Assembly: GCA_000687975.1 (NCBI GenBank)
Contig: JIAB01000001.1
Coordinates: 1,116,001-1,180,000, forward strand
DNA from: Lachnospiraceae bacterium AC2031
GTDB taxonomy: Bacteria > Bacillota > Clostridia > Lachnospirales > Lachnospiraceae
Length of the DNA: 64,000 nt
Reading direction: 5' to 3'
The position numbers were made by a program, and so were the translations under genes. Shown here one piece after another: positions 1 to 16,533 of this stretch. Numbering within the stretch: the first letter of the stretch is position 1; each line of letters opens with the position of its first letter. The notes beneath the pieces were generated by a model. That model had not been told where the DNA came from, searched no databases, and was given only the letters and a program-made list of their open reading frames with translations.

Positions 1-6
1 TCCATA

Positions 7-2712
7 TTATATATCCCCCAACTTTTTACACAGGTTAATATATTCATTAATGTATGACTCTGAATCTCCATAAATAAAAGTCAGGTCATTATCCTTAGCA
101 GCATACTCATGTTTTCTTGAACGTTCACTGAAATCCTTTAGTCCTATAGTTGCCATAGAACTCTTTATGGTATGAGCATCAATCCTGTAAGCCTGTATAT
201 CCTTTGCCTCAAGGCTCTTTCTCATTCTTTTAGAGCGTTCTTCGCATTCCTTAACTATATCAGCTATGATTTCCCTTAGAAGATCTTCTTCGCCACCACA
301 ATAGCTGAGAGCAGTATCATAATCAAGTCCATCTATAGACGATAGTCTATCCTTTAAAGAACCTGTATTTTCGATATGAGCTTCGACAGCAGCCTCAGTT
401 ACTATATCTGCAGGCAGCAGTCTTTTTACCATTTCTTCAAGAATACTGGAATCCAATGGTTTAGTTAGATAATCATCAAAGCCTGAACTCAGATACATAT
501 GGCGGCTTCCAGCTACAGCATTTGCAGTGAGTACTACAGCTTTTGTATCTTTATTTAGTGAATCTTTATCCTCTCTAATAATGTGAAGAGCTTCTATACC
601 ATCTGGTTCTGGCATCATATGATCCATAAGGATCAGATCATACTTTTTCTCTTTACATAGCTCTATAGCTTTTTCACCTGAGTTACAGAGATCAGGAACT
701 ATACCATTTCGCTTTAAGAAAAGCTTTACAATAGTAAGATTAGATTGATTATCATCTACCGCTAAGATCTTTGCATCAGGAGCTATAAAGCTGCTATTCG
801 AGGTTTCAACATACTGTTCTGATCTACGCTCCAGAAAATCCTTTTCCAGTGGTTCTGAGTCTTTTATCTTAACAGGAAGCGTTACCCAAAATTCAGATCC
901 CGCTCCATATTCACTCTCTACTCCTAGCTTTCCATTCATGGAATCAACTATGCTTTTAACTATAGCAAGTCCTAGTCCCGTACCCTCTATATTTGCATTT
1001 GACTTTATATCTGCTCTTGAGAATGCTTCAAAAAGGTGGGCCTGTTCTTCTTTTTTGATTCCCTTTCCAGTATCTTTTACATAGAATCTCAGCTCATAGC
1101 CTGAAGGAGTATCTCCTCCGCCAACTTTAAGGGTGATACTACCCTTCTCCGTATATTTAACTGCATTGTTTAAAAGATTGATAAGGATCTGTCTTATTCT
1201 AAACTCATCACTGATCATCTGACATGGAACCTTATCTACTATCTCAGTGCAAAGCTCCAGATCTTTCTCCTCAGCCCTTTCTTTAATAAGCGAGATAACA
1301 TCATACAGCATATCTGACATCAGAAAATCAGCTTCTTTTATCTCCAGCTTTCCAGACTCGATCTTTGTAAAATCGAGTACATCATTAACCAGCATCAGAA
1401 GCATCTTTCCAGACGTCTTAATATTTCTTGAATACTCTTCGATAGCTTTATCGCTGTTCTCCCTAAGTATCATTTCATTCATACCAAGGATTGCATTTAT
1501 AGGTGTTCTAATCTCATGAGACATACTTGCGAGGAATCTGGTCTTAGCAGCAGAAATATCTATAGCATGCTGCTTCTCCTTATTGATCTTTCTAAGATCA
1601 TGTACCTGCTGAATAACAATAAAGGTAAGAAGGAATCCAAGTCCCACAACCATCGGGATTGATTCTCTGATAATTCTGATATCGAAGAGAGTGTTAGTTA
1701 ATTCAATAAGACAGCCAACTAGGAATCCCAGGAATCCCATAAAGGTATAGTGGTAAGATACAGTGTTTCCCTTTACTGCATCCACAACCAGATTTGCAAT
1801 TCCCATTACAGCCAGAAGCACCAGAACGCCATTTGCTACATCTATCACATAATAGAAATCCAGTATTCCAGTAAAATGTAATAACGGCCAGACAACAGCA
1901 TTAAGTACAGAAACGAGCACTACAACCAGCATACTCTTCTTGTACCTTCCACGCTGTATAGAATTTAGATAAATAATAAGACAAAGCGGAATCATCAGGC
2001 ATAGCATAAAGCTAAGCAAGCCATTAACATGATAAACTCCAAATATCAGTGGAAACAGATTAGAATCGGTAATGAGCCAGGCTGCTATGATAAAGATACC
2101 AAGAGCACCGTACATCATATCAATCTTCTGTTTAAACATTAGTTTCAATATGATACTAACTACAAATGAAACAAATGAAAAAATAAGAACTATAAAAGAT
2201 AGAATAAAGAGTAGTCCCACAGATTTAAAAAGATACATAAGAGCACCGGAACGAGTGCTGATAAAAACCTCCGGTATTCCGTAATCAATATCCTGTATAG
2301 ACTTACGGACTAACTTTATTTCTGCACCAGAATCAGTTTCTTTAAGAGGCACATTAAAAAGAAATCTTCTGAAGGAACCACCGGGAATATTTACATCTCG
2401 TTCTTCAACAAAGTCTTTTCTGAGAGTCCCATTTATATATACAGATACATCCTTACGAGTATCAAAGTAAAGATATTCGTTATCAGCAATTTCATAAGGA
2501 AGAGTGGATATAATTGTCTGATCACTATCCTCTTCATAGATTGTTGTCCAATCCTCAATGAAGCGAACCTCTTCTTTTTTTAAGGTATCACCTTTATTTA
2601 TAAATCCATAATAAACAAAAACAAAGGTTGTAAAGACAAGCATAACTAAAAGCAGCACTTTCACTGCTGTAACACTCATCTCTAACAGCCCTTGTTTCTT
2701 GTTATCCTGCAT
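7..2712 (-). CDS. 7TM-type hybrid sensor histidine kinase (HisKA-HATPase-REC-HPt)
   Basis: This is a membrane-bound phosphorelay kinase of 901 residues. An N-terminal membrane segment (about 12-35) is followed by an external domain to about residue 150, then roughly seven hydrophobic helices (about 160-375), the layout of 7TMR-DISM receptors. The HisKA motif MSHEIRTPINAIL carries the phospho-acceptor H399. A GHKL ATPase follows, with a DTGKGIKKEE G1-type motif and GTGLGLAIV. The receiver domain has D697 in LILMDHMMP, and a C-terminal HPt domain has H847 in AHTIKSSM. All four relay residues are present, so phosphotransfer His-Asp-His to an unlinked regulator is likely. The start is supported by GAGGATGG about 6 nt upstream. 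No partner regulator is adjacent, and the signal is unknown. The next gene upstream is the esterase at 2771, with a 58-bp gap. Confidence 0.9.
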   Translation of the reverse strand: MQDNKKQGLLEMSVTAVKVLLLVMLVFTTFVFVYYGFINKGDTLKKEEVRFIEDWTTIYEEDSDQTIISTLPYEIADNEYLYFDTRKDVSVYINGTLRKDFVEERDVNIPGGSFRRFLFNVPLKETDSGAEIKLVRKSIQDIDYGIPEVFISTRSGALMYLFKSVGLLFILSFIVLIFSFVSFVVSIILKLMFKQKIDMMYGALGIFIIAAWLITDSNLFPLIFGVYHVNGLLSFMLCLMIPLCLIIYLNSIQRGRYKKSMLVVVLVSVLNAVVWPLLHFTGILDFYYVIDVANGVLVLLAVMGIANLVVDAVKGNTVSYHYTFMGFLGFLVGCLIELTNTLFDIRIIRESIPMVVGLGFLLTFIVIQQVHDLRKINKEKQHAIDISAAKTRFLASMSHEIRTPINAILGMNEMILRENSDKAIEEYSRNIKTSGKMLLMLVNDVLDFTKIESGKLEIKEADFLMSDMLYDVISLIKERAEEKDLELCTEIVDKVPCQMISDEFRIRQILINLLNNAVKYTEKGSITLKVGGGDTPSGYELRFYVKDTGKGIKKEEQAHLFEAFSRADIKSNANIEGTGLGLAIVKSIVDSMNGKLGVESEYGAGSEFWVTLPVKIKDSEPLEKDFLERRSEQYVETSNSSFIAPDAKILAVDDNQSNLTIVKLFLKRNGIVPDLCNSGEKAIELCKEKKYDLILMDHMMPEPDGIEALHIIREDKDSLNKDTKAVVLTANAVAGSRHMYLSSGFDDYLTKPLDSSILEEMVKRLLPADIVTEAAVEAHIENTGSLKDRLSSIDGLDYDTALSYCGGEEDLLREIIADIVKECEERSKRMRKSLEAKDIQAYRIDAHTIKSSMATIGLKDFSERSRKHEYAAKDNDLTFIYGDSESYINEYINLCKKLGDI

Positions 2713-2770
2713 AAAAATCCATCCTCAAATCTTTTGTATATAATACCAAAAAAGTGAAGATTCTACCACA

Positions 2771-3724
2771 TTAAAAGCCTATTCTTCTGATTGCCTCTAC
2801 CAGATTTCTTCCATAACTTTCTGTACCCAGTCCGTTAGGGTGAAGATTATCCAGATAGTACTCTGAAAGATGCGGAACAAGTGTAAAGCCTTCAACAACT
2901 TTTATATTGCCGTACTTTCCTACAATCCTTTTTATCTCTTCACAGAACTTTGTAAGAACAGGAAGTCCGTCTTCTGAATCACCTCTCCATAATGGTGTTA
3001 TACATAGTATTGGAATCTCTGTTCCATAAATTCCGATAAGAGTTTCATAATACTCTTCTACAACCTGAGGAGCATTCTCATCTCCGTACTGATTGGTTCC
3101 CAAAGCAACTATGATCTTATCAGGATTATATCCCTCCATCTTCATCAGAGATTTATTATCATAAATATATCCGCCTATTCCCTGATTTAAAATATCATAG
3201 TTTAATAATCTGTTAGCTACACTAACATATGTCTGATATGATCTAAGAGGACCGAAGCCCTGGGTTATTGAATCTCCAAGCCACAGAACCTTTTCATTTT
3301 TAGTAACATTTTTATAGTCAGCATCTATATCAAAATTTTTAATAAGAACTGTAGCGTCAGCAGGAAGATAGATGGTTACATTCTTCTCTCCCTGTGGCAT
3401 ATCCCAGCTGATTGTTCCTTCCAGTTCAACATCCTTCACGTATACAATCTCTGTAGCAAGACCATCTATAGATAGTTCAAAAGAATCTTCTGAACCCTTC
3501 CATATGATCTTGTAATCGAAAGAAACCTTTGTTGCATCAGATATAAACTCTATAGTTTTAGCTGTAGAAGCATCACATCTTTCGAACCACATTTCAAATG
3601 CACCTTCAAAGTAATCCATCTGAGGTTTGGTATACTGATTGGCTTTAAGATATCCATCTTCTGTTTCCTCAAAATAGAGTGCACCATAGTATATTTCTTT
3701 CAATTTTTCATTTGATAATTTCAT
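2771..3724 (-). CDS. SGNH/GDSL-family esterase
   Basis: This 317-residue protein has no signal peptide and is probably cytoplasmic. The first half (to about 145) is a beta-rich domain, as in two-domain SGNH carbohydrate esterases. The hydrolase block I is VLWLGDSITQGFG, with the nucleophile Ser in GDS. Block III is LGTNQYGD, and the C-terminal DNLHPNGLG supplies the Asp-His pair of the triad. Family knowledge suggests deacetylation of acylated sugars or oligosaccharides, which fits a plant-fibre-degrading host, but the substrate cannot be read from the sequence. AAAGGGG lies upstream of the ATG. It may share a transcript with the kinase gene downstream. Confidence 0.85.
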   Translation of the reverse strand: MKLSNEKLKEIYYGALYFEETEDGYLKANQYTKPQMDYFEGAFEMWFERCDASTAKTIEFISDATKVSFDYKIIWKGSEDSFELSIDGLATEIVYVKDVELEGTISWDMPQGEKNVTIYLPADATVLIKNFDIDADYKNVTKNEKVLWLGDSITQGFGPLRSYQTYVSVANRLLNYDILNQGIGGYIYDNKSLMKMEGYNPDKIIVALGTNQYGDENAPQVVEEYYETLIGIYGTEIPILCITPLWRGDSEDGLPVLTKFCEEIKRIVGKYGNIKVVEGFTLVPHLSEYYLDNLHPNGLGTESYGRNLVEAIRRIGF

Positions 3725-3951
3725 AAAATATTTACCCCTTTCATATCGATATTATGACATAAATTTAAAGCATTTATTCAAGTATAAAATATCGGTCTTT
3801 TTCATCAAAAAAATGGCTAAAAATAGGCCTTTATTTTATTAGAAAAGCCATTTATATTATAGCAAATATTTAGCAAAAAACTATAATCAAATTACACTAT
3901 TACACAAATACACTATTTACAACTATATATCGAAAGAGAGGACGTTGAGTT
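3725..3951. other. AT-rich non-coding stretch with a stem-loop and TTACAC repeats
   Basis: No gene is supported here. AAATGGCT at 3811-3818 pairs with AGCCATTT at 3846-3853 across a 27-nt loop. Closer to the next ORF, TTACAC or near matches start at 3892, 3900, 3909 and 3917, spaced 8-9 bp. This spacing is not helically phased. The stretch probably holds the promoters of the esterase (minus strand) and of the small frameshifted ORF (plus strand). Confidence 0.4.
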
Positions 3952-4153
3952 ATGAGAAAAAACAACCTGGAATACTTACCAGCTGGATGTTTATGTGGAT
4001 ACAGACGGTGAAATTCACCTTGGTGCCAGCGCATCAAACGAAAACAGAGTATCCGCTTCAGGACATTCAAGAGATAGTGAGACTGCTACCCTTTTTGCAT
4101 CAAAGCTTGGTTTAGATGGTTCCAGAAACACACCACTCGGAAATCAGTATTAA
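3952..4153 (+). pseudogene. small ORF of about 66 codons, broken by a +1 change in an A6 run
   Basis: An ATG at 3952 follows GAGAGG by about 11 nt and is read for only a few residues in frame. If one A is removed from the A6 run at 3957-3962, the frame opens into 66 residues ending at TAA 4151-4153. That product is hydrophilic and protein-like: it begins MRKTTWNTYQLDVYVDTD, continues GEIHLGASASNENRVSASG and ends NTPLGNQY. I do not recognise the family. The length is 202 nt, which is 67 codons plus one base. Alternatives are a genuine pseudogene, a homopolymer sequencing error, phase variation or programmed frameshifting. The ORF is followed directly by a strong bidirectional terminator, so it looks like a transcription unit of its own. 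Confidence 0.5.
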
Positions 4154-4191
4154 TAATAGAAATGCTCATATAAAGCATTCCCTCACACATA

Positions 4192-4237
4192 AAAACACTA
4201 CTGCTTAGCAAAAGCTTAGCGGTAGTGTTTTTGTTTT
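4192..4237. terminator. bidirectional intrinsic terminator
   Basis: AAAACACTAC pairs with GTAGTGTTTT, and the inner GCT.AGC part of the stem also pairs. T tracts follow on both strands. It separates the plus-strand small ORF from the convergent GGDEF gene, and can end both transcripts. Confidence 0.8.
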
Positions 4238-4256
4238 ACTTGTGTTCCCATTGGCC

Positions 4257-5648
4257 TTATCTATATTTTTTCTCTGGATGAGCTTTGTAGTACTCATTTT
4301 TATCTATATACATTCTTTCATCTGCCAGACGCATAGCTTTTCGGATATCGTCTCCTTCACTCACTACATATGTTCCTACAGCAAAATGAATACTATGTAC
4401 ATCTTCTGCATATTGATTAATCGCCTTTATTCTATGACTTAACTGGTCCTCATCGGTAAATGGAGCAATGATCATAAACTCATCTCCGCCTGCTCGATAA
4501 ACTAAAGAATCATCAAACACCTGAAGCAATGTCTTAGCGGCACTTTGAAGCATCTGATCACCAGCGTCATGCCCCTTCTCATCATTAACTCTCTTAAGAC
4601 CATTTAAATCTGCAAATACAACTGCATATGGATACTTAATCTGAATCTTACCATCAACGATATCATTTACATATGTATTCATGGCATTTCTGTTTCTGAC
4701 TCCTGTCAGCATATCCATAGAGCTAAGTACTTCCAATCGCTTAAGCAACTGATAGTTAGAGATTTCTGATGCAATAAACAGAGATGTGAGTTCAAGTGTT
4801 TCTTTGATCTTTACTGTATTTTCAACATTAAAATTAATGGCCCATATATATCCTAGAACTCTGTTATTATATTCCAATGGAAGAAGCACTATATTCTTAC
4901 CACCCGCATCTGTAAGTGACTTATGCCAGGTTGGATTAATCTCCTTAAGCCACTCCATATCGTTGTCATCCTTTATGATAACACTGGTACTATCACCAAT
5001 AGTATCTTTCCAGGTCTGGACTATTCCATAAAAGCTTTCGTTAAGGTATGTATCCATTGGAAGCAGACCGCAGTCTGGTTTAAGTGCCTCACAGAAGGTC
5101 TGACAACGCCTTACTTCATCATCAACAAGAAGAATGCAGCAATGATCTGAGTCACATATTTTTCTGATATCCTCTATTACTTCATCCAGACTTTCACGAG
5201 TATTATCTGTGCTCCTAAGTTTAATACAGGTTGATAAAACCGCAGAAGATGTATCCGCGGAAAGACTCGCCCGCTGCTCAGAATCTGCATTTGGTGTTAC
5301 ATCGTATGAATAAATGCAGTAACCTGTATTCTCTTTATCTGACTCTAGTGGAAGTAGAAACATATTAAGCCAAAGCCCCATCTGTGGAAGCTTAACATAT
5401 GTATGAAGTGGTTGTCCTAAAATCGCCGAACGATAACAGAAATCCTCAAAGTTTCTGTTCTGTGGAAGATACTCCTCATAAGGTGAATCCGGAATAAATG
5501 GACGATGCATGACATTCATCATGTCATCACAGTGAGCTTTGTTTCCAGCTACAATACGAATATTTCCGTATTGATCATCCGAAAACATTTCTACAGAAAT
5601 GATACAAGTTTTGGCCTTGTACCCCGATAATAATCTTTCAAAATCCAT
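4257..5648 (-). CDS. diguanylate cyclase with N-terminal sensory region and GAF-like domain
   Basis: This soluble 463-residue protein makes cyclic di-GMP from two GTP. The GGDEF catalytic motif is intact at residues 387-391 (RAGGDEF), preceded by the domain start LSSMDMLTGVRNRNAM and the nucleotide-site FADLNGLKRVNDEKGHDAGD. Residues of about 150-300 have the character of a GAF domain, and the first 140 residues form an unassigned sensory region with PAS-like length. I see no RxxD inhibitory site immediately upstream of GGDEF. No membrane segment is present. The start has GAGGAGAAGG about 4 nt upstream. It is a single-gene unit between the terminator at 4192 and the GHKL operon. Confidence 0.88.
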   Translation of the reverse strand: MDFERLLSGYKAKTCIISVEMFSDDQYGNIRIVAGNKAHCDDMMNVMHRPFIPDSPYEEYLPQNRNFEDFCYRSAILGQPLHTYVKLPQMGLWLNMFLLPLESDKENTGYCIYSYDVTPNADSEQRASLSADTSSAVLSTCIKLRSTDNTRESLDEVIEDIRKICDSDHCCILLVDDEVRRCQTFCEALKPDCGLLPMDTYLNESFYGIVQTWKDTIGDSTSVIIKDDNDMEWLKEINPTWHKSLTDAGGKNIVLLPLEYNNRVLGYIWAINFNVENTVKIKETLELTSLFIASEISNYQLLKRLEVLSSMDMLTGVRNRNAMNTYVNDIVDGKIQIKYPYAVVFADLNGLKRVNDEKGHDAGDQMLQSAAKTLLQVFDDSLVYRAGGDEFMIIAPFTDEDQLSHRIKAINQYAEDVHSIHFAVGTYVVSEGDDIRKAMRLADERMYIDKNEYYKAHPEKKYR

Positions 5649-5718
5649 ATGCCTTCTCCTCTCTGGATTTTCCTTCTTAAATTGTACTAATACCCCGTAC
5701 TTTATTATATCATATCGA

Positions 5719-7182
5719 CTACATATTTCTAGGAATTAATATAGTAAGCGTAAATACCCCATCCTTTGCACTTACCTTTTCTATCCCATCATACTTGGAT
5801 ATAGTAGCCTTCATATTCTGTGTACCAAATCCATGAAGAGATCTATCTTTCTTCGTAGTAACTCTTTCGCCGTCCCCAAAAAGTTTTCCAGCAATACTTC
5901 CTTCCTCAACCATAGTATTACTAAGAGTTACAGAAAAGAATTTGTCGGTCTTTTTCATATCCAGCTTAATCCACTTATCACTCTCTTCTGGAAGCTTCTC
6001 ACAGGCCTCTATGGCGTTGTCCATAGCATTTGCAAAGATACTGCAGATGTCTACAGGCTTCATTCCAAGGCCGCCATCAACGACTCCATCGATAATAAAA
6101 TCTATCTTCTCTTCCTCCATCTTAGAGGTTTTCATACCAACGATACAGTCCAGCATCTCGTCACCTGTTATATATTTCGGTGACATCGCCTTGATATTTC
6201 CAAGAAGAAGCTTCAGTTGTTCCCCTGCCTCCTCAATATTATTATTTGAATATAGTGTAGAAAGACTGGCCAGATTATTCTTTATCTCACGTCTGAAAGC
6301 TCTGGTCTCATTTTGATCCTTCTTATATTGGTTCAGATAATCCAGTTCTGCCGCGATATAGTTTTCCTGAATCTTTGACTTTTCAACCACATAACGTCGA
6401 GAAATAATGGAAATAAACATAAATGGAACTACAAAACCAATAATTGGCATAATAACTCCAAGTTCATATCTGATACATGTCTCATATATTGTATCAGAGC
6501 TGATAAATGCCATAAGGGTCAGACCTATCATAAGGGATTCCCATAGAATAAATAGCACTCTATACTTCCAGTTAATATACATAGTCCTGGATTTTTTTAT
6601 CATTCCAAAGTAAAGTGCAAGAAAAATGATCAAGCATATAAAAGTTGAAACAAGCACACATATATAACTAAGCATTCGACCTACATAATCATCTATATTG
6701 GTCATATCTACCATGGCCTGTCTTGGATCATCAAAAAAGAATGATACCGAATATGTTGTTTCAAGCATAACATACCCTATAAGACCTATTGTCATTAACA
6801 TAGTAAAAAGGGCGGTTCGAATTCTTTTCTTCGAAAATGTAAGCATAGCGGATAGAAAAATACATGAGTAAAACATAAATCTGCAAAGCCCTATAGGTGC
6901 TCCCGGATACTGAACTAACAGCATGCCCTCCTGATATGGTTCATTCCAAGTTTTTCTAAGCGTAGTAAATTCATAGATCACAACTATTACATAACAGATT
7001 AAAAAAAATATAAAAAAAATAGTGAGCGGTAAAGCGCTCTTTCTTGTAAGCTTTCCCTCTTTCCCAAAGAAACATATCAGGATCATTATCACAGAAAAAG
7101 CTACAAGAACACCCGCTAGATTATCCAGGATCAAAGGAATGAACATATTAAGTTGTGATTTAAACATTTCACCACATGTCAT
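5719..7182 (-). CDS. GHKL-domain membrane sensor, phospho-acceptor His replaced by Arg (copy 1)
   Basis: This 487-residue protein has the layout of AgrC-type peptide sensors: about six or seven N-terminal membrane helices (to about 265), a coiled helix, then a GHKL ATPase. The ATPase N box (DICSIFANAMDNAIEACE) and G box (SLHGFGTQNM) look intact. The dimerisation helix reads ETRAFRREIKNNL, so the usual His of FRHD is Arg298 (codon CGT at 6289-6291). In the third paralogue this site is CAT. The ATPase half is almost identical to copy 2, while the membrane half differs. It is the last of three tandem genes with gaps of 18 and 25 nt. No LytTR regulator lies nearby. It could be a signalling pseudokinase or a partner subunit; this is inference. 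Confidence 0.85.
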   Translation of the reverse strand: MTCGEMFKSQLNMFIPLILDNLAGVLVAFSVIMILICFFGKEGKLTRKSALPLTIFFIFFLICYVIVVIYEFTTLRKTWNEPYQEGMLLVQYPGAPIGLCRFMFYSCIFLSAMLTFSKKRIRTALFTMLMTIGLIGYVMLETTYSVSFFFDDPRQAMVDMTNIDDYVGRMLSYICVLVSTFICLIIFLALYFGMIKKSRTMYINWKYRVLFILWESLMIGLTLMAFISSDTIYETCIRYELGVIMPIIGFVVPFMFISIISRRYVVEKSKIQENYIAAELDYLNQYKKDQNETRAFRREIKNNLASLSTLYSNNNIEEAGEQLKLLLGNIKAMSPKYITGDEMLDCIVGMKTSKMEEEKIDFIIDGVVDGGLGMKPVDICSIFANAMDNAIEACEKLPEESDKWIKLDMKKTDKFFSVTLSNTMVEEGSIAGKLFGDGERVTTKKDRSLHGFGTQNMKATISKYDGIEKVSAKDGVFTLTILIPRNM

Positions 7183-7207
7183 GATCTTTCAACCTGCTTT
7201 TAACCAA

Positions 7208-8674
7208 CTAATTATTCTTTCTAGGAATTAATATAGAAAGCGTAAATACCCCATCCTTTGCACTTACCTTTTCTATTCCATCATACTTGGAGATAGTAGC
7301 CTTCATATTCTGTGTTCCGAATCCATGAAGTGACCTATCTTTCTTCGTAGTCACTCTTTCACCGTCCCCAAAAAGCTTTCCAACAATACTTCCTTCCTCT
7401 ACCATAGTATTACTAAGAGTTACTGAAAAGAATTTGTCGGTCTTCTTCATGGCCAGCTTAATCCATCTCTCACTCTCTTCTGGAAGCTTCTCGCAGGCCT
7501 CTATGGCGTTGTCCATAGCATTTGCAAAGATACTGCAGATGTCTACAGGCTTCATTCCAAGGCCTCCATCAACGACTCCATCGATAATAAAATCTATCTT
7601 TTCTTCCTCCATCTTAGAGGTTTTCATACCAACGATACAGTCCAGCATCTCATCTCCTGTTATATATTTCGGTGACATTGACTTGATATTGCCCAGAAGA
7701 GACTTTAGCTGCTCTCCTGCCTCTTCGATATTGTTATTTGCATATAGCGTAGAAAGACTGGCTAGATTGTTCTTTATCTCTCGTCTGAAAGCACGAGTCT
7801 CATTTTGATCCTTCTTATATTGGTTCAGATAATCCAGCTCTGCCGCGATATAGTTTTCCTGAACCTTTGATTTTTCAACCACATAACGTCGGGAGATAAT
7901 AGATATCAACATAAATGGAACTACAAAACCAATAATTGGCAGAATAACTCCAAGCTCATATCTGATACATGTCTCATATGTTGCATCCGAACTCTTAGAT
8001 TCTACAAGAAGCAAACCTATCATAAAGGATGTCCATATGATAAACAGCGTTCTATACTTCCAGTTAATATACATAGTCCTGGATTTTTTCATCATTCCAA
8101 AGTAAAGTGCAAGAAAAATCACTATACCTATAAGAGTTGAAACAATAACATATACATATATAAGCTTTTGCCCTAAATGATCATTTACATTGGCCATATT
8201 TATCATGGCCTGTCTTGGATCATCAAAAAAGAATGATATCGAATATATAGTTTCAAGCTCAACATACCCTATAAGAACTAAATTCATTACCAATGATAGA
8301 ATTGCTGTCCGAATTCTTTTCTTCGAAAATGTGAACATAGCTGACAGAAAAACACATACGCAAACCATAAATCTGCCAAACCATAGAGGTATTCCCGGAT
8401 ACTGAATCAACAGCATTCCATCTTGATATGGTTCATTCCATGTCTTTCTAAGCGTTACATATTGATAGATCACAACTAATACACCAGGTACAACTAAAAC
8501 CACACAAAGAAAAGCTAATGGATAAATGCTCTTTCTAGTGAGTTTTCCTTCTTTCCCCAAAAAACATATCAGGATCATCATCACAGTTAAAGATGTAAAA
8601 ATACATGATGAATTATCCAGAATCATGGGAATGAACATATTAAGTTGTGATTTAAACATTTCACCACATGTCAT
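7208..8674 (-). CDS. GHKL-domain membrane sensor, phospho-acceptor His replaced by Arg (copy 2)
   Basis: This is the middle gene of the GHKL triplet. The first ten-odd residues (MTCGEMFKSQLNMFIP) and the whole cytoplasmic half match copy 1 closely. The membrane helices and outer loops between about residues 17 and 240 are much more divergent. The H-box reads FRREIKNNL, with Arg (codon CGA at 7781-7783) at the phospho-acceptor position. N and G boxes of the ATPase are intact. I chose ATG 8674 because it aligns with the start of copy 1 and has GGTAG 9 nt upstream; an ATG two codons earlier (8680) is possible. Regulation is presumably from the promoter before the third paralogue. Confidence 0.85.
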   Translation of the reverse strand: MTCGEMFKSQLNMFIPMILDNSSCIFTSLTVMMILICFLGKEGKLTRKSIYPLAFLCVVLVVPGVLVVIYQYVTLRKTWNEPYQDGMLLIQYPGIPLWFGRFMVCVCVFLSAMFTFSKKRIRTAILSLVMNLVLIGYVELETIYSISFFFDDPRQAMINMANVNDHLGQKLIYVYVIVSTLIGIVIFLALYFGMMKKSRTMYINWKYRTLFIIWTSFMIGLLLVESKSSDATYETCIRYELGVILPIIGFVVPFMLISIISRRYVVEKSKVQENYIAAELDYLNQYKKDQNETRAFRREIKNNLASLSTLYANNNIEEAGEQLKSLLGNIKSMSPKYITGDEMLDCIVGMKTSKMEEEKIDFIIDGVVDGGLGMKPVDICSIFANAMDNAIEACEKLPEESERWIKLAMKKTDKFFSVTLSNTMVEEGSIVGKLFGDGERVTTKKDRSLHGFGTQNMKATISKYDGIEKVSAKDGVFTLSILIPRKNN

Positions 8675-8698
8675 GATCATCTACCAACTTATAACCAA

Positions 8699-10057
8699 TT
8701 AATTGTTCTTTGAAATACTTATAGATAGCGTATACTCTCCATCTTCTGTTTTACTATTACAAGTACCGCCATACTTTGATATAGTCGTCTTTATGTTATG
8801 CATTCCGGATCCATGTAATCCCAGGTCTTTCTTCTTTGTCTGTTCTTCCGAAGAGATAGCATTTTTAAGCTTTATATTTATAGCTTTGTCAGAATTTTCT
8901 AATGACATACTGATCCAGCGATCATCATCCTCAATATTCTCACAGGCCTCTATAGCATTATCCAGTGCGTTAGCAAAGATACTGCAGATATCCACAGGCT
9001 TTATTCCCAGACCGCCTTCAATAGCTCCGTCCAGGGTAAATGATATTCCTTCCTCCTCCATCTTTGAAGACTTCATTCCTATGATGCAGTTAAGCATCTC
9101 ATCTCCTGTTAAATATTGAGAAGACTTAGAACTTATATCATTAAGAAGTGTACTAAGATATTCCTCTATCTCATCAAACTTCTTTTCCTCATGCATTACA
9201 GACAGCATGGACAGATTATTGATGATGTCATGTCTGAAGGCTCTTGTCTCAGTCTGATTCTTCTTATACTGGTTTATATAGTCAAGTTCAGCTGATATAT
9301 AGTCCTCCTGAAGGGCTGTTTTTTCCAAAGCATATCGCCTTGAGATCACAGTTATCATCAGAATAGGAACTACTATGCCCATGGAAAGCATGATAACTCC
9401 AAGTTCATACTGCATATAGTGAATCTGTTCATTATGAGAATTTGCTCCCATTACTGGAACATAAGTAGTACAGATTACTAAAATCTCCCAGAGAATAAAC
9501 ATGATTCTGTAATTCCATCCGATATACATAGTTCTCTGATTTCTTATCATTCCAAAATATAAAGACAGGAAAATGACCAGCATGATCAGCAGATATGAAA
9601 AGATAAAAAGGCCAGAAAATCCACTACCTAAGTATCCATCCATTCCGTTAAAGCCCTGCATAAATTCTCTAGGTGCTTCGGAAAAATACATGGCGGTGAA
9701 TATCATTTCACATGATATATAAGTTTCGAACATGAAGATCATTAGACACGCTATGAGGCAATTGATCACGCGTTTTGAAGTAAATGTAAAAAATGCGGTA
9801 ATTACTGTTACTATAAAGAACAGTACTACAAAAAGAATATTTAGATTATGCCCCCTAAAGATAGCATTTAAAATTGTGACTAATCCGACATATATAGCTC
9901 CTGGAAGAAAAGTATACTTCGTAACTTCACCTTCTCTCCCAAGAAAACAGATCATAATAAAGATTACAGAGAGTGCACAAAAAACTTCCCCGATATAGGA
10001 AAGTATAGGAAAAATATATGTAGAAATAAATGGGAATAAACTTCCAACGATTATCAT
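8699..10057 (-). CDS. GHKL-domain sensor histidine kinase, canonical H-box
   Basis: This is the first gene of the triplet and the only copy with the phospho-acceptor: TETRAFRHDIINNL, His276 (codon CAT at 9230-9232). It has 452 residues, with several membrane helices to about residue 245, a coiled DHp-like helix, and a GHKL ATPase with DICSIFANALDNAIEACE and GLHGSGMHNIK. It is clearly paralogous to the two downstream genes but more divergent in both halves. The family (AgrC/CitA-like HATPase_c_5) usually pairs with LytTR response regulators and senses peptides, but none is encoded here. A GGAGGG site precedes the start and a good promoter lies at 10094-10123. Confidence 0.88.
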   Translation of the reverse strand: MIIVGSLFPFISTYIFPILSYIGEVFCALSVIFIMICFLGREGEVTKYTFLPGAIYVGLVTILNAIFRGHNLNILFVVLFFIVTVITAFFTFTSKRVINCLIACLMIFMFETYISCEMIFTAMYFSEAPREFMQGFNGMDGYLGSGFSGLFIFSYLLIMLVIFLSLYFGMIRNQRTMYIGWNYRIMFILWEILVICTTYVPVMGANSHNEQIHYMQYELGVIMLSMGIVVPILMITVISRRYALEKTALQEDYISAELDYINQYKKNQTETRAFRHDIINNLSMLSVMHEEKKFDEIEEYLSTLLNDISSKSSQYLTGDEMLNCIIGMKSSKMEEEGISFTLDGAIEGGLGIKPVDICSIFANALDNAIEACENIEDDDRWISMSLENSDKAINIKLKNAISSEEQTKKKDLGLHGSGMHNIKTTISKYGGTCNSKTEDGEYTLSISISKNN

Positions 10058-10093
10058 ATAACTTCACCCTCCACACAGCATGCGCTAAAACTT

Positions 10094-10123
10094 ATTATAC
10101 TATATCATCAAAAATTTCGACAA
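10094..10123 (-). promoter_or_regulatory. sigma-A-type promoter of the GHKL operon
   Basis: On the minus strand TTGTCG (10123-10118) is followed after 18 nt by a consensus TATAAT (10099-10094), about 37 nt upstream of the first GHKL start codon. Confidence 0.55.
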
Positions 10124-10176
10124 ATAGAAAAATGGTGTGGAAGGACAAAATTATCGTGTGAATTGATATGTTATAT

Positions 10177-10626
10177 CTAGAAAAGACCGATCAGGTGAAG
10201 TACTAGGAATGATAATCCGAGTATAATCATGAAGCCGCCAACTATATAAAAAATTATATAGAAGAGCTTGAAGCCTCTTGTTCCTTCGATAATAACTCTT
10301 TTAGGGTTATTTCTATCATAAAGGATAGGAAGCTGAGTTCCTGCTGGGTAGTTCTGCTTTGATGTATATATAGTTGGAGTGGCCTGAACCCACTGTCCGT
10401 TTGCAATAAAACGAAATTCAGGTGCATAAACCTTCTGATGACTCCTTGGTCCTACATTCGTACTCATAACAACATTTCTGGTTTTGGTTTCTACCACCTC
10501 TCCAAAGGTGCGTTCAGTACAGTTCTTCATAGTGCTATTCTCAATTACATTAAAGAGTACAGCAAACAGAATAAAGAATACTCCAATTCCTAAAAATATT
10601 AATCCAACAAATGTTATAGCTTCCAT
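10177..10626 (-). CDS. DUF3592 membrane protein
   Basis: This 149-residue protein has hydrophobic helices at both ends (about 5-27 and 122-147) and a central domain. The pattern is that of DUF3592: GEVVETKTR, then YAPEFRFIANG, then YPAGTQLPILYDRNNPKRVII. The function of the family is not known. AGAAAGG precedes the start. It is divergent from the sugar-sensor/GGDEF gene, and its own terminator is not obvious. Confidence 0.75.
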   Translation of the reverse strand: MEAITFVGLIFLGIGVFFILFAVLFNVIENSTMKNCTERTFGEVVETKTRNVVMSTNVGPRSHQKVYAPEFRFIANGQWVQATPTIYTSKQNYPAGTQLPILYDRNNPKRVIIEGTRGFKLFYIIFYIVGGFMIILGLSFLVLHLIGLF

Positions 10627-10740
10627 AATTTTTTCCTTTCTGTCTTACTGTGTCGAATATACTATTGAGTGTTGCATTTAATTCTAAAAATTTTTACAAA
10701 TAATAACTTATAATTTCGTACAAAAATATCATTAAATTGC

Positions 10741-10769
10741 TTCAATTATAGCGGTTTTCATGGTATAAT
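10741..10769 (+). promoter_or_regulatory. extended -10 promoter for the sensor/GGDEF gene
   Basis: TGGTATAAT at 10761-10769 is an extended -10 element. A weak -35 (TTCAAT, 10741-10746) lies 17 bp upstream. The start codon at 10832 follows 63 nt later, with AAGGGG as ribosome site. Confidence 0.5.
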
Positions 10770-10831
10770 AATAGCACTAGCTATTAACTAAAAATATAGG
10801 GGTTTTTGTTACATAATTAAGGGGTTAATTT

Positions 10832-12766
10832 ATGAATAGAAAGATAGTCGCTGCATTTATTGCCGACATTTACCGTGACATGGTAAAGGAGACACAGTAC
10901 GGCACTATTATGGCAGCAAAGCGATTTGGGGTAAAGCTTCTTTTCTTTGCGAGCTTTAGTGACAACTTCAGTAATGCTCAGTATTCCCGCATTTCAAATT
11001 ATGATATTGGCGACAGTGCTATCTATAAGCTACCGAATCTCAATAATTTCGATGGCCTTGTTACTTATGACAGCTATATGCCTAGTATCTTTATAAGTCT
11101 GATCAACGACCTTAAAGAAAAGGCGCCTTGTCCAGTTGTAACTCTGGGAGATATTAAGGACTACTCTTATAACGTTGTAAATGATCAGGATCTTTCATTT
11201 AGAGAGGTTATTGAGCACACTATCAATGTTCACGGCGCTAAAGAGCTTATCCATGTAGCAGGTAATCCTGAACTCTCTTTTGTTCAGGACAGAATGAGAG
11301 TATTTAAGGATACTCTTTTAGATCATAATCTGCCATATGATGACAGCCGTATTCTCTACGGAACACTGTGGTATGATTCTGCTCAGCGTGTTACAGATGA
11401 GATTCTGAAACTTTACGAGACAAATGAGAACCATATGCTACCTGATGCCATAATCTGTGCTAACGACTATACTGCTATCGGCATCGCAGATGAATTATCA
11501 AGACGAGGCTTCAGAATTCCTGAAGATACCATCATTACCGGATATGATGATGTAATTCAGGCAAGATTCCACGATCCATCTATCACTACATCCTCTCAGC
11601 CATTTGAGCAGGTAGGAAAAGATGGTATTGGCATTCTAGAAAAAATATGGAGCGGAGAGCCTGTTGAGCATACTACTGCAGAACCTGGTCTTCTTAGAAA
11701 GCGTCAGTCCTGTGGATGTGAAGAAAAGCATCAGTACCAGCAGGACGACTTAAGAGAGAGTTATGCAACTATTATTGATAAGCTGGGTAACCTGTCCAGA
11801 TCCAACACGAATCTTATACTTTCCGTTTCTTCCGCAGAAACTAACAAGGATGTATTTGATGAGATTGAGGCTAACTGCCGCAAAGACACAGGCTTCAAGG
11901 ACGCTGTTCTCTGTCTGATCAATGGATGGGATCAGCATAAGATAATAAATGAGCCTTCTGATTTTGACGATGCAGAATTTGAGGTTGTATGCGGTATTTA
12001 CAACGAGAGATCCATACGTAGAGAAAAACTTCCAAAGGGTCAGCTTCTACCAACAGTAATGCTTGAGGATAGTGAAGCGTACTACCTGGTACCGATTCAT
12101 CATCTTCAGTACTTTATGGGCTACTTTATCATATCTCCTGATCTGGAGAATCTGTCACAGCTGAACATTAAGTCCTGGTTTATAAATGTCAGCTCCATGC
12201 TGGAGAACTGGCGAGTAAAGCAGAAGCTTAAGGTTACAGTTGACAGACTTGAGAACCTGTATATGACTGATATGCTGACTGGTCTTTATAATCGTCGAGG
12301 ATATGGAACCCATTTCCAGACCTATTACGAAGAGTCTCTTAAGAATAGTTCTTCCATTGCCGTATTCCTTATCGACATGGATAACATGAAGTACATCAAC
12401 GATAACTACGGACACGATGAAGGTGACTATTGTCTCTGCACCATAGGAAATGCTATGAAGAAGGCCGCATCATCAAAAGAAATCTGTATCAGATCAGGTG
12501 GTGATGAATTCGTCGTTCTTGCTAAGAACTATGACGATGAAAAAGTTAAAAAATATACTGAGGAACTTCGTTCGTACATAGATAAGTCATGCACAAAGGA
12601 TAAGAAACCTTATAGCATATCTGTAAGTGTTGGATGCTATATCCAGACTCCGAACGAAGACGAAGAAAAAGCCTCATCTATTACCGATATCTCTGAGAGA
12701 TATCTAAGAGAGGCCGATACTCTGATGTATCAGGAAAAGAAAGAACATAAGAAAAACCTTAAGTAA
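10832..12766 (+). CDS. sugar-binding-domain (LacI/PBP1-like) diguanylate cyclase
   Basis: This 644-residue protein fuses a periplasmic-binding-protein type 1 fold (about 1-290) to a GGDEF domain (about 480-640). The N-terminal domain begins directly with the first strand (KIVAAFIADIYRDM), so the LacI DNA-binding helix-turn-helix is absent. It ends with LRKRQSCGCE, a Cys-rich motif common at this junction. A GAF-like middle segment and a helical linker (WRVKQKLKVTVDRLENL) lead into YMTDMLTGLYNRRGY. The GGDEF motif is intact at 556-560. There is no signal peptide or membrane helix, so it should sense a cytosolic ligand and produce c-di-GMP. The gene at 14800 is the same architecture without GGDEF. 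Confidence 0.88.
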   Translation: MNRKIVAAFIADIYRDMVKETQYGTIMAAKRFGVKLLFFASFSDNFSNAQYSRISNYDIGDSAIYKLPNLNNFDGLVTYDSYMPSIFISLINDLKEKAPCPVVTLGDIKDYSYNVVNDQDLSFREVIEHTINVHGAKELIHVAGNPELSFVQDRMRVFKDTLLDHNLPYDDSRILYGTLWYDSAQRVTDEILKLYETNENHMLPDAIICANDYTAIGIADELSRRGFRIPEDTIITGYDDVIQARFHDPSITTSSQPFEQVGKDGIGILEKIWSGEPVEHTTAEPGLLRKRQSCGCEEKHQYQQDDLRESYATIIDKLGNLSRSNTNLILSVSSAETNKDVFDEIEANCRKDTGFKDAVLCLINGWDQHKIINEPSDFDDAEFEVVCGIYNERSIRREKLPKGQLLPTVMLEDSEAYYLVPIHHLQYFMGYFIISPDLENLSQLNIKSWFINVSSMLENWRVKQKLKVTVDRLENLYMTDMLTGLYNRRGYGTHFQTYYEESLKNSSSIAVFLIDMDNMKYINDNYGHDEGDYCLCTIGNAMKKAASSKEICIRSGGDEFVVLAKNYDDEKVKKYTEELRSYIDKSCTKDKKPYSISVSVGCYIQTPNEDEEKASSITDISERYLREADTLMYQEKKEHKKNLK

Positions 12767-12796
12767 GTTTTCCTGATTAAACTCATGAATAAAGTA

Positions 12797-13948
12797 TTAC
12801 CTGAGAACTATAATGAAGCGAACGCCTTCGTTATAGTTCTCTGCTTTTATGGAGAATCCGTGCTGTTCAAGAATCTCTTTTGCAAGAGAAAGACCGATAC
12901 CAGTACTGCCGCCCTCGCCCATGTAGAAGCGATCAAACATCTTCTTGGCATCCTCTTCAGAGAGGCTGGTACCGTCATTCCAGATAACTAATGTACCACC
13001 GGTACAACCGATATAGATCCGAGTCTGTGCATAACGAATGGCATTAGAGATGACATTTGACACCGCCCTCTGCATCTGCTCGATATCAACCGTAATGAAC
13101 TGGTCTTCTATCTCAGTCGTTACTGTAAGGTTTTTATTCTGAATCTCCATGTAGAATGCATCCAGCGCATCACCCACCAACTCATTAATGGAGATTTCTT
13201 CCTTGTTGTACTTCATGCTCTTTCGGTCGTACTTAGATAGAAGCAGTATCTCGTCCACCATTTGGGACATCTTACGCACTTCCTTCTGTATTACCTTATA
13301 AGCATGCTGCTCCTCTATAACGCCCTTCTGGAGGCCTTCTGAGAAGCCCTGAATAGACATGAGTGGAGTCTTTAGTTCGTGGGAGGCATTTTCAAAGAAC
13401 TTCTTCTGCTTATCCTGCTCGTCGCGTATACGCTTAGTCATTCTAAAACCAACCACCGTTGATATAACATCACAAACGATCATGACCATAAGGAGGATAA
13501 GCATTACTATATGCTCCATGGTCTTAGCAGACGAAATATCTGTATAGATAGCTATACGATCGTTGGTGTCCTGCTCACGTATCTGTTTAATGTAAAAAAG
13601 ACGATCTTCTAATTCTACCGTATAAATCTTATTAGTCTTATCTCTGTTCTCTCTGCACCAGCTTCTTACAAGATTTTCTACGCCATACTCCATGTCAGGA
13701 CGGAATTCCTCAGCATCAAACTCCAACAGAAAGTAGTAAGACCTGAAGAGATTCTTACCCTCACTGTACTCCATATACGAGTCTGAATCTCTCTTTCGAA
13801 GGAAGCCCTCACAGTTCTGAATACTTCTGTAGGCTTCAGAACCTATATAGCGGTTAAGCGAAGTAAGAACACATAAGAACACAATAACGAAAGAAATCGT
13901 AAGGATTACAAATATATATATTCCTAGATTTTTTCTGGTTTTTATCAT
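12797..13948 (-). CDS. two-component sensor histidine kinase
   Basis: This 383-residue kinase has membrane helices near 12-32 and 155-180 that enclose an external domain of about 120 residues. No clear HAMP domain is seen. The DHp motif NASHELKTPLMSIQGF contains H190. The ATPase shows NAIRYA (N box) and GGSTGIGLSLAKEI (G2). I chose ATG 13948 because its start overlaps the regulator stop as ATGA and it has GGGAGAGG just upstream; a longer reading frame begins at 13981. It is translationally coupled to the OmpR-type regulator and is the second gene of the pair. Signal unknown. Confidence 0.88.
   Translation of the reverse strand: MIKTRKNLGIYIFVILTISFVIVFLCVLTSLNRYIGSEAYRSIQNCEGFLRKRDSDSYMEYSEGKNLFRSYYFLLEFDAEEFRPDMEYGVENLVRSWCRENRDKTNKIYTVELEDRLFYIKQIREQDTNDRIAIYTDISSAKTMEHIVMLILLMVMIVCDVISTVVGFRMTKRIRDEQDKQKKFFENASHELKTPLMSIQGFSEGLQKGVIEEQHAYKVIQKEVRKMSQMVDEILLLSKYDRKSMKYNKEEISINELVGDALDAFYMEIQNKNLTVTTEIEDQFITVDIEQMQRAVSNVISNAIRYAQTRIYIGCTGGTLVIWNDGTSLSEEDAKKMFDRFYMGEGGSTGIGLSLAKEILEQHGFSIKAENYNEGVRFIIVLR
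12803..12841. terminator. long hairpin inside the kinase 3' end, between convergent genes
   Basis: GAGAACTATAA pairs with TTATAGTTCTC, and an inner GAAG/CTTC extends the stem. The hairpin is read on the plus strand 36 nt after the GGDEF stop and is followed by TGCTTTT. On the minus strand it encodes the last codons of the kinase. It is the only terminator candidate for the plus-strand gene. Confidence 0.5.
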
Positions 13949-14655
13949 AAAACCTCTCCCAGCTGATAGCCGTATCCCCATACAGTATTGATAGTAACTC
14001 TGCTCTGCGCCTGACGCAGTTTTCTACGGAGGCGACGTACAGTTTCATCAACTACTCTTGTCTCTGTATCTGAATCCAGCCCCCAAAGGTCGTTCAGGAA
14101 ATCCTCTCGGGATATAGCCTCATCAGAACGCTTAAGCATATACTTAAGGAAGTCCAGTTCCATCTCTGTAAGACCCAGATTCTTATTGTCACATATTATT
14201 GCATGACGGCTTTCAGAATAAGAGATATCTCCGTAGCTTAAGTTTTCGATAACATTTTCCTTTGCAGATTCTCTCTCCAGATCTATTCTTCTGAAAAGAG
14301 CCTTTATCCTCATCATAAGAATCGAAGGGGAAAATGGCTTGATCATGTAGTCATCGCTTCCTGAAGTGATTCCGATGGAGTAGTCCATCTCAGACTCCTT
14401 GGCTGTCAGCATAATGATCGGAACCTTAGAAATGCTTCGAATCTGCTTACATATGTCGATCCCATTTGTCCCAGGCATCATAATATCAAGGATAACCATA
14501 TCTGATGGTTCCTTTAAAAACTGATCATAGAGTGCATCGCCTGTTTCAAAAAGCATAACTCTGTAGCCTGCCTGCTGAAGGAAAGCCCCCAGAATCTCGC
14601 GAATATTCTCCTCATCATCAGCTGCATATATAAGTTTAGTATCGTTACTAGCCAT
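13945..14655 (-). CDS. OmpR/PhoB-family response regulator
   Basis: This 236-residue regulator pairs with the downstream kinase. The receiver has the acidic pair DDEE near the N-terminus, the phospho-acceptor D57 in VILDIMMPG, a Thr in PIIMLTAKE and the switch Lys in YMIKPF. The C-terminal winged helix has LTEMELDFLKYML and the recognition region DETVRRLRRKLRQ, ending GYGYQLGEVL. I chose ATG 14655 because GAGAGGTG lies 5 nt upstream; the frame extends to 14670. The stop codon overlaps the kinase ATG. Confidence 0.9.
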   Translation of the reverse strand: MASNDTKLIYAADDEENIREILGAFLQQAGYRVMLFETGDALYDQFLKEPSDMVILDIMMPGTNGIDICKQIRSISKVPIIMLTAKESEMDYSIGITSGSDDYMIKPFSPSILMMRIKALFRRIDLERESAKENVIENLSYGDISYSESRHAIICDNKNLGLTEMELDFLKYMLKRSDEAISREDFLNDLWGLDSDTETRVVDETVRRLRRKLRQAQSRVTINTVWGYGYQLGEVL

Positions 14656-14799
14656 AGTTACACCTCTCATTTCAATGTAAGTATTATACTCTCTGTTCGT
14701 AGTTTTTACTATAACTCTTTGTTCATTTTTACACTATATTATTTCCGGTATCTGGTTTATAATATTAATAGTTTAATCTGTATGAAGAAGGTTTGGGGT
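14656..14799. promoter_or_regulatory. divergent promoter region
   Basis: The 144-bp gap between the regulator and the divergent sensor gene has a TATAAT -10 on the minus strand (14688-14683) and one on the plus strand (14758-14763). The -35 elements are weak on both sides, which suggests activator dependence or an incomplete match. Confidence 0.35.
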
Positions 14800-16533
14800 A
14801 TGAATAACAGTAAAAAGATAGGTTTTCTTGTCAGTGGTATAACTGACGAGTTTACTAAGCCTCTGTGTGAGGGGATTATAGAAGAGGCCGAACATGATGA
14901 CGTTGATATCATAGTCATCCCTGTCAAATATATCGATAGAGAGATGAAAGAGATCCAGGATCTCTATGAATATCAATATAAAACTAACGCTGAAAATGTT
15001 ATCGCAGAAAATATAGATGTTCTAATCGTATCTGCAGATACCATAGGATGTCTCACAACTAAAGAAAACATGATGAACTTTCTTGATGGACTAAGAGCTA
15101 GGGGAATTCCAATTCTGCTTGCTGCATCAAGAAGAGAAGGTTATCCAGGAGTTGTCTTCGACAACAAGGTTGGCATCATTGATGGCATCACTTATCTTAT
15201 CGAGGAGCTGGGAGTCAAAAAAATCTGTATGCTCCGTCCTCTCTACAACAATTCTGATATTGAAGAGCGTTGCGAAGCTTTTTATGAGACCATGGACTTT
15301 TATAAATTGCCCGTGGAGCCTAACTCTGTCATTACCACAACCCATTCAAATGATTATGAAGCAGACTGCTACAGACTTATGGACTTAAACCCTGATGTGG
15401 AGGCTGTATTCTGCGTTACTGACGCAGCAGCTATGGAGTTCTATAAGGCTATGGAAAAGCGCGGTCTTGTTCCGGGTAAAGACATAAAGATCATGGGATT
15501 CGATAATTCAATCAGCGGCAGCATGATAACCCCATCTCTTACTACTGTAGAAGCAAGTCCAGAAATGCTGGGAAGACGCGTGTACAAACAGGTACGCCGA
15601 ATCTTAGAGGGCTGGGATATTGGTGATTCAGTAGTTCCGACCAGATTTATCCTGAGAGATTCATTTGGATCTTTCTTAAACAGAACAAATGTAGATAAAA
15701 AGATTCTGGACAAGAACTATCTGGATAAATATTTCCACCGAATCTTCTATAAATATGAGAATGTTCCAGAGTCAGAAGGACTCGAGACTCTGATCCAGTA
15801 TAAAACATTCATGAATGTTTTAATTGACTATGTTAATGATGCAGACTTCAGTCCTAAAAGATCAGCTTTTCTAAAAACAAAGCTTGATGAATTCTTACAG
15901 ACTGGTGCTCTCGCCTTTTCTGATGCAAATGTATTACTGGCTTATGTAAATCGTCTAAAACAGACAATCCTGGATCGATTCGATGACTACGAAGCAAAGT
16001 GTTCTGTATATAATACATTCTCCGGACTCTCAGAAAGAATCACTATGATCCTGCGAGACGACGTAATAAAACATGAGAAGATGATGAGTGACTCCTTTAT
16101 GGCCCTAAAGAATATGGTTGAGGATACTCTGAACTTCAGTAAGGGCGATGACGAAAGCTATAAGAATATCGTGTCCAATCTTTCTCACTTCGGTATTAAG
16201 AATGCTTACGTATATATTTACGAGAAGCCGATATTCCATAAAGAAAAGGAACCTTTTAAAGTTCCTGATAAATTGCTTCTCAAGGTTGCTATGACTGAAG
16301 GCGAGATTCAGGTTCTTCCACCAGAGGAACAGCCGATCAACCTTATGGACATTTATAGCAATCCTTATATCACTGATTCAAAATACAATATGGTGCTGAT
16401 GCCACTATATTTCCGTGAAAATCTTTACGGCAGTGTGCTATACGACCTAACAGATATCACCTATGAAAATGGTGAATTCCTGGCCAACCAGTATTCAACC
16501 GCCGCTCGTGTTATCGACATCCTAAACAAATAA
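14800..16533 (+). CDS. LacI/PBP1-like sugar-sensor protein without output domain
   Basis: This 577-residue protein starts with a PBP1-type sugar-binding fold (KKIGFLVSGITDEFTKPLCEGIIEE; IKIMGFDNSISGSMITPSLTTVEAS near 230-255), followed by a helical region and a GAF-like domain near 460-570. It has no helix-turn-helix, GGDEF, kinase or membrane segment. The same layout at 10832 continues into a GGDEF domain, but this one stops after STAARVIDILNK, where the linker to the output domain would begin. A REP-like sequence lies directly after the stop. It may act through a protein partner or be a truncated cyclase. ATG 14800 is chosen over an upstream in-frame ATG (14719), since GAAGAAGG precedes it and homologous proteins start just before KKIGFL. 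Confidence 0.8.
   Translation: MNNSKKIGFLVSGITDEFTKPLCEGIIEEAEHDDVDIIVIPVKYIDREMKEIQDLYEYQYKTNAENVIAENIDVLIVSADTIGCLTTKENMMNFLDGLRARGIPILLAASRREGYPGVVFDNKVGIIDGITYLIEELGVKKICMLRPLYNNSDIEERCEAFYETMDFYKLPVEPNSVITTTHSNDYEADCYRLMDLNPDVEAVFCVTDAAAMEFYKAMEKRGLVPGKDIKIMGFDNSISGSMITPSLTTVEASPEMLGRRVYKQVRRILEGWDIGDSVVPTRFILRDSFGSFLNRTNVDKKILDKNYLDKYFHRIFYKYENVPESEGLETLIQYKTFMNVLIDYVNDADFSPKRSAFLKTKLDEFLQTGALAFSDANVLLAYVNRLKQTILDRFDDYEAKCSVYNTFSGLSERITMILRDDVIKHEKMMSDSFMALKNMVEDTLNFSKGDDESYKNIVSNLSHFGIKNAYVYIYEKPIFHKEKEPFKVPDKLLLKVAMTEGEIQVLPPEEQPINLMDIYSNPYITDSKYNMVLMPLYFRENLYGSVLYDLTDITYENGEFLANQYSTAARVIDILNK

Follow-up and report, generated by a model that had tools for sequence, protein, structure and literature searches.

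Histidine kinases normally act as homodimers, and the stepwise rise of obligate heterodimers has rarely been seen. Split kinases as such are already known: CheA3 and CheA4 of Rhodobacter sphaeroides are each incomplete, one having the phosphorylatable and the other the catalytic part, and only their mixture autophosphorylates (PMC3591291). Streptococcus has two membrane sensors, FasB and FasC, with one ComE-like regulator, FasA (PMC12675982). Two-hybrid data were consistent with FasB/FasC heterodimers, not homodimers, the kinase domain of FasC was dispensable, and its His246 was required; the authors proposed that FasC is a pseudokinase whose His246 is phosphorylated by the FasB kinase domain (PMC12675982). 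Other kinase-like non-kinases reported to affect a partner kinase are RocA (PMC7028121), DivL (PMC12189002), and the pseudokinase version of ChrS (PMC9491836). AgrC is a complete kinase, active as a dimer (PMC6755735). In a sequence comparison with an E limit of 0.01, the Staphylococcus aureus protein was the only solved relative of the sensors described here (6e52 and 6e95; E 0.0037). The AgrC regulator is encoded in the same operon.

Three AgrC-type sensors in tandem

The locus lies in a stretch of 64,000 nucleotides (the window) from a genome of 3.19 Mb in one contig (G000). Its nearest named relatives among the matches were Lachnospiraceae near Eubacterium ruminantium and E. uniforme, with many records from rumen samples. 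Three intact minus-strand ORFs, named C, B, and A, follow each other head to tail with gaps of 18 bases (C-B) and 25 bases (B-A) (Table 1). All three encode the HATPase_c_5 domain of AgrC/ComD-type GHKL sensor kinases (79.4 bits in A, 79.3 in B, and 83.4 in C; cut-off 22), together with an N box and an HGxG box, and the FRHDxxN acceptor motif is found in C, with Arg in place of its His in A and B. By sequence, A and B belong to this type by descent and are predicted not to be self-sufficient kinases. They combine the two marks of pseudo-histidine kinases, namely kinase architecture without the acceptor His and maintenance by selection. In single-chain models of B and C, several long helices precede the DHp helix. 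The top fold matches of the B model were AgrC 6e95 and 6e52, at a modest TM of 0.51 by target and 0.27 by query, and the match to the AgrC ATPase domain 4bxi gave a TM of 0.75 by target (rmsd 3.0).

The neighborhood was partly conserved. Counterparts of a hybrid kinase with HisKA, receiver, and Hpt domains (window 7-2712) occurred beside the kinase pair in G062 (70% identical) and G026 (68%), and a 47% counterpart of the GGDEF gene at 4257-5648 was found near the kinase pair in G006. About 3.2 kb to the left of the window lies a truncated gene of the same family (L032:10239-10775; G000 about 1112239-1112796) that has kept its ATPase end and lost the DHp motif and membrane part; the stretch preceding it holds many stops in that strand's three frames.

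Table 1. Features of the tandem sensor locus, in window coordinates
Feature	Position	Strand	Basis
Gene A, AgrC-type membrane sensor, Arg for His, full ATP lid	5719..7182	-	ORF, domain match
Full ATP lid of A, 27 residues (423-449)	5836..5916	-	Window coordinates by hand
CGT, Arg298 of A, phospho-acceptor position	6289..6291	-	Codon read
Gene B, AgrC-type membrane sensor, Arg for His, full ATP lid	7208..8680	-	ORF, domain match, model
Full ATP lid of B, 27 residues (425-451)	7328..7408	-	Window coordinates by hand
CGA, Arg300 of B, phospho-acceptor position	7781..7783	-	Codon read
Gene C, AgrC-type membrane sensor, HDIINN kept, ATP lid shortened	8699..10057	-	ORF, domain match, model
Shortened ATP lid of C, 15 residues (400-414)	8816..8860	-	Window coordinates by hand
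CAT, His276 of C, predicted phospho-acceptor	9230..9232	-	Codon read
TTGTCG-18-TATAAT, resembling a promoter at 10 of 12 positions, immediately downstream of the repeat	10094..10123	-	Consensus match
Degenerate direct repeat upstream of C, possibly LytTR-type, two boxes 21 bases apart	10134..10165	-	

A preliminary description of this DNA had reported FRREIKNN in A and B against FRHDIINN in C, and the codons bear this out. The two Arg codons differ, hence a synonymous change has happened at Arg. We compared 99 distinct family sequences (rows) retrieved by profile search (E up to 1e-30) from the searched genomes and 78 loci. Arg was rare at the acceptor site, occurring in 3 of the 97 rows that cover it, with His in the other 94. 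The three were A, B, and the orthologous downstream copy of another species, G006 (FRREIKSK). Counts of the patterns TRAFRR[DE] and TRAFRH[DE] across 392 genomes of the order were useless as a frequency, since these matched only one genome (the window's own) and two genomes (the window's own and one other), respectively. The remaining downstream copies read HEIMSN (G026), HDIMTK (G062), and HDIISN (G028). The partner motif is graded across species, from HDIISN through HEIMSN, HDIMTK, and RREIKSK to RREIKNN, and each version adjoins a copy with a short or altered ATP lid.

The same description had the N and G boxes retained in all three proteins, which is correct, but it overlooked the lid of C. 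Measured between the conserved Asn and HGxG, this lid is about 12 residues shorter than those of A and B. Across the 99 rows, lids had 25-29 residues in 88, 20-23 in six, and 11-15 in five. The last group comprised C, its orthologues in G026, G006, and G062, and one G001 copy, all of them with HDIINN and all adjoining a full-lid partner; in G001 the partner motif is a fully canonical HDIVNN. The upstream copy of G028 has a lid of 23 residues without the usual LF and TSK pattern, altered rather than short. The 92 rows of at least 400 residues that cover the acceptor site (seven shorter ones were dropped) divide into 17 tandem rows and 75 others. Five tandem rows and none of the others had lids of 15 residues or fewer (Fisher p 1.3e-4), and six tandem rows against two others departed from HDxxN (p 3.8e-4), although the rows are related and both p values overstate the case. 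The two nontandem exceptions were distant GHKL proteins. In none of the 92 rows did a short lid and a changed motif occur in one protein. Neither defect was seen in G006 contig 40 and L193, two of the eight tandem sets.

C retains the N box, a G1-like Asn, and HGxG, and the ATPase fold is kept in the AlphaFold models of both C and B (mean pLDDT 81.6 and 83.9). Within the lid of C, pLDDT fell below 50 at residues 406-414, and the short lid helix of B (432-436) has no counterpart.

Descent and evolutionary rates

In the tree, A and B were joined (100/100), the downstream copies of G026, G006, and G062 joined them (99/99, five rows), and the upstream copies of those three genomes formed a group with C (100/98). 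These groupings indicate that the set stems from an old tandem pair, A and B being a later duplication. The second Arg gene, that of G006, grouped with the downstream His gene of G062 (98/98). Joining it with A and B was disfavored when the whole protein was used (p 0.030) or its membrane half (p 0.0036), but not with the cytoplasmic half (p 0.30), in a test whose group was chosen after the sequences were known. By codon comparison, CAT to CGT plus ATG to AAG would change HEIM of the G026 downstream copy into REIK, and a parallel origin of the Arg form in A/B and in G006 appears feasible.

A and B were described as nearly identical in their cytoplasmic halves and diverged in their membrane halves, and the identities agree, at 215 of 226 cytoplasmic and 178 of 261 membrane residues. 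Between the halves, dN differed (0.186 membrane and 0.025 cytoplasmic) at equal dS (0.317 and 0.324), the cytoplasmic dN/dS being about 0.08. Nonsynonymous differences numbered 101 in the membrane part and 13 in the cytoplasmic part, and synonymous ones 44 and 37 (Fisher p 1e-7, counts rounded); windows on the DHp helix had the highest dS (0.65-0.69) with a dN of 0.035. Gene conversion as the source of the similar cytoplasmic halves was rejected on the equal dS. This equality and the low cytoplasmic dN argue that A and B are under selection, with neither decay nor conversion at work. The Arg copies are thus maintained, as had been supposed, with open frames, low cytoplasmic dN, and the Arg form in a second species.

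To compare the two types, rates were calculated among C types and among A/B types of the window, G026, G006, G062, and G028, with B standing for the window. Pairing both types from the same genomes matches their divergence times; the ten genome pairs share branches and are not independent. In every one of the ten, the ratio of DHp to CA dN was higher in the A/B type than in the C type. Compared with the A/B type, the C type had higher CA dN in 9 of 10, lower membrane dN in all ten, and lower DHp dN in six, the four exceptions all including G028. Fourteen stand-alone kinases served as baseline (89 of 91 pairs, two beyond the distance limit being dropped), with median DHp/CA of 0.86 (range 0.52-1.71) and CA/TM of 0.37. 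Across the five genomes the baseline DHp/CA lay between the C type (0.61) and the A/B type (1.13), with overlapping ranges. Without G028, DHp/CA and CA/TM were 0.42 and 0.93 in the C type (C and three orthologues) and 1.15 and 0.43 in the A/B type. The effect persisted when the lid was excluded from CA (0.47 and 1.46; baseline 0.92). On these substitution rates the catalytic domain of the C type is clearly relaxed, and the DHp of the A/B type moderately so, less strongly than the catalytic domain of the C type. Given its shortened lid and a catalytic domain evolving nearly as fast as its sensor, C may be no more complete than A and B.

A distant candidate regulator and an upstream repeat

No LytTR regulator adjoins the sensors among the ORFs of window positions 1-16000, in line with the preliminary description. 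The sole stand-alone regulator recognized among the ORFs listed for that span (13945-14670) had a 27% match, over query residues 21-171, the receiver part, to the unlinked full-length LytTR regulator found elsewhere in the genome, about 1.25 Mb away (2371061-2371822). This distant gene was one of two full-length regulators among nine LytTR matches; the other seven were short open frames of 147-162 residues, in our judgment too short for a receiver plus LytTR domain. The short LytTR proteins lie at L023, L024, and L027-L031. The distant regulator is followed by a complete kinase paralogue (HDIINN, 25-residue lid), the only family gene found in the genome with both the His motif and a full lid.

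Relatives of this regulator (E up to 1e-45) occurred in 30 of 61 genus genomes, at least one in each and in G007 also a weak second (37%), a count for which 44 of the first-look candidates were scored in many genomes. Other LytTR regulators also exist. The kinase family was present in 29 of the 61, and counting by hand gave 28 genomes with both, one with the kinase only (G025, a fragment), two with the regulator only (G029 and G076), and 30 with neither. In G029 a kinase fragment adjoins the regulator. Much of the co-occurrence is linkage. No family kinase was found near the regulator in G026, G062, and G006, the G026 contig being only 5.2 kb long; the regulator of G006 is flanked, as judged by eye, by trp-like genes and by mechanosensitive-channel-like and acyltransferase-like genes. 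The same neighborhood holds the regulator with two kinases in G001 (L122:8184-11841), where it is encoded with the sensors, and without a kinase in G006 (L238:5409-6110). In G028 the regulator adjoins another family kinase. Beside the tandem sets themselves no such regulator was found in G000, G026, G006, and G028, nor by eye in G062. Because the regulators of G026, G062, and G006 lack a neighboring family kinase, the natural reading is that the regulator would act in trans with the tandem set, whose likely target is predicted to be this distant response regulator.

The direct repeat upstream of C (Table 1) resembles AgrA/VirR boxes, and on that resemblance we take it to be a possible LytTR site. 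Promoter-like sites were fewer in the region than in shuffled sequence (21 versus 28.9). Two TTYAC boxes 21 bases apart also precede the first gene in G062 and G006 and, with one mismatch, in G026; in G028 the comparison covered 30 bases. A loose pattern matched 15 times in six genomes versus 8 for the reversed control, a weak excess. A tighter pattern derived from those matches gave 18 versus 1 in 61 genomes, 10 of the 18 being in the six source genomes and the other 55 genomes giving 8 versus 1. The window copy fits the loose pattern only, which had been widened to include it. Counted by hand, 10 of the 30 regulator-bearing genomes had a match, as did 3 of the 31 that lack the regulator, and given the latter the short, receiver-less LytTR proteins may own the repeat. 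By eye, copies lie ahead of ABC-transporter-like operons in G000 and G028. In the window's genome one (L258:4696-4724) precedes genes whose products look like a membrane-fusion protein, an FtsX-like permease, and an ABC ATPase. In two species the repeat (L259:4348-4376 and L263:4620-4648) precedes genes that are similar to each other, by eye for an ABC ATPase and two permeases, perhaps a shared regulon.

A possible split receptor kinase

We rate slightly above an even chance the proposal that A, B, and C form a split receptor kinase, arisen by duplication and reciprocal loss and most likely active as a C:A or C:B heterodimer. After duplication, C would have kept His276 with a truncated lid, and A and B a whole ATPase with Arg. 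In the heterodimer, the ATPase of A or B would phosphorylate His276 of C in trans, and C would hand the phosphate to the LytTR regulator at 2371061-2371822, which would also serve the complete paralogous kinase adjoining it. Divergence between the sensor halves of A and B could let the set join two input ranges to one output, and the degenerate LytTR-type repeat in the promoter region makes it possible that this output feeds back on the set. We infer heterodimerization, the direction of phosphotransfer, the identity of the regulator, and autoregulation from sequence comparison. The preliminary description had envisaged ATP-binding pseudokinases acting with one active kinase, perhaps as heterodimers; heterodimers with one output fit the present data, whereas "one active kinase" became doubtful with the short lid and fast catalytic domain of C. 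Set against the proposal, C may still bind ATP through its retained boxes, some histidine kinases function with short lids, the His-bearing partners in G026, G062, and G028 could autophosphorylate, and C could also pair with the complete paralogue. Somewhat short of an even chance, in our estimate, is the fuller history of a family caught midsplit, where lid loss came first and freed the partner's DHp to decay until its His had become Arg, and in the lineage of the window the His-less partner was duplicated again, giving one acceptor, two interchangeable ATPase receptors that differ in their sensors, and a distant regulator fed by all.

C might be a working kinase in spite of its short lid, inhibited or tuned by A and B as regulatory pseudokinases in the manner of RetS on GacS or RocA via CovS, its lid change being a regulatory adaptation. 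The retained N and G boxes and a modeled ATPase fold intact except for the lid speak for this; we regard it as unlikely, given that it leaves unexplained why lids of 15 residues or fewer occur in tandem copies only and never with a changed His motif, and why the A/B-type ATPase has stayed close to stand-alone kinases in its conservation (CA/TM 0.43 versus 0.37). E/DxxN is a phosphatase motif, and both its acidic +1 and its Asn +4 residue are present in A and B, so that these might be His-less phosphatases of a shared regulator. This seems improbable: position +4 is Ser or Thr in the orthologues of G026, G062, G006, and G028, including RREIKSK, although Ser/Thr could still serve, and HDxxN is kept in 84 of 92 rows, which weakens the idea and is not decisive.

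Loss of the acceptor His would also be expected if A and B were decaying, functionless duplicates, and the truncated family gene outside the window indicates that decay does happen in this genome. With frames open, a cytoplasmic dN/dS so low since the A/B duplication, and the Arg form in a second species, we consider decay highly improbable. A and B might instead work through another regulator, another residue, or the nearby hybrid kinase, which is also found beside the pair in G062 and G026. We give this little credence, the hybrid kinase being of a different class and linked to the GHKL set by position alone. If the split-kinase proposal is true, five related species capture reciprocal loss at graded stages, which amounts to a testable route from homodimer to split kinase, and the set is a natural design joining several receptors to one phosphate acceptor and one output.

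Among the literature matches listed, no title concerned such a system. In the excerpted descriptions of RocA, DivL, and ChrS, neither lid loss in a partner nor a tandem set of two pseudokinases with one acceptor is mentioned. CheA3 and CheA4 are chemotaxis proteins of a cytoplasmic cluster that lack whole domains, whereas A, B, and C are membrane receptors altered by substitution and a small deletion. FasB/FasC is the nearest tested case, and the proposed likeness is that one partner would supply the ATPase and the other the His. There, however, the genes and their regulator form one locus and FasB still has candidate histidines, whereas here the regulator is encoded elsewhere and the acceptor is Arg in two copies. 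Also unlike Fas, the present set has two ATPase-bearing copies for its one His copy, with intermediates across species.
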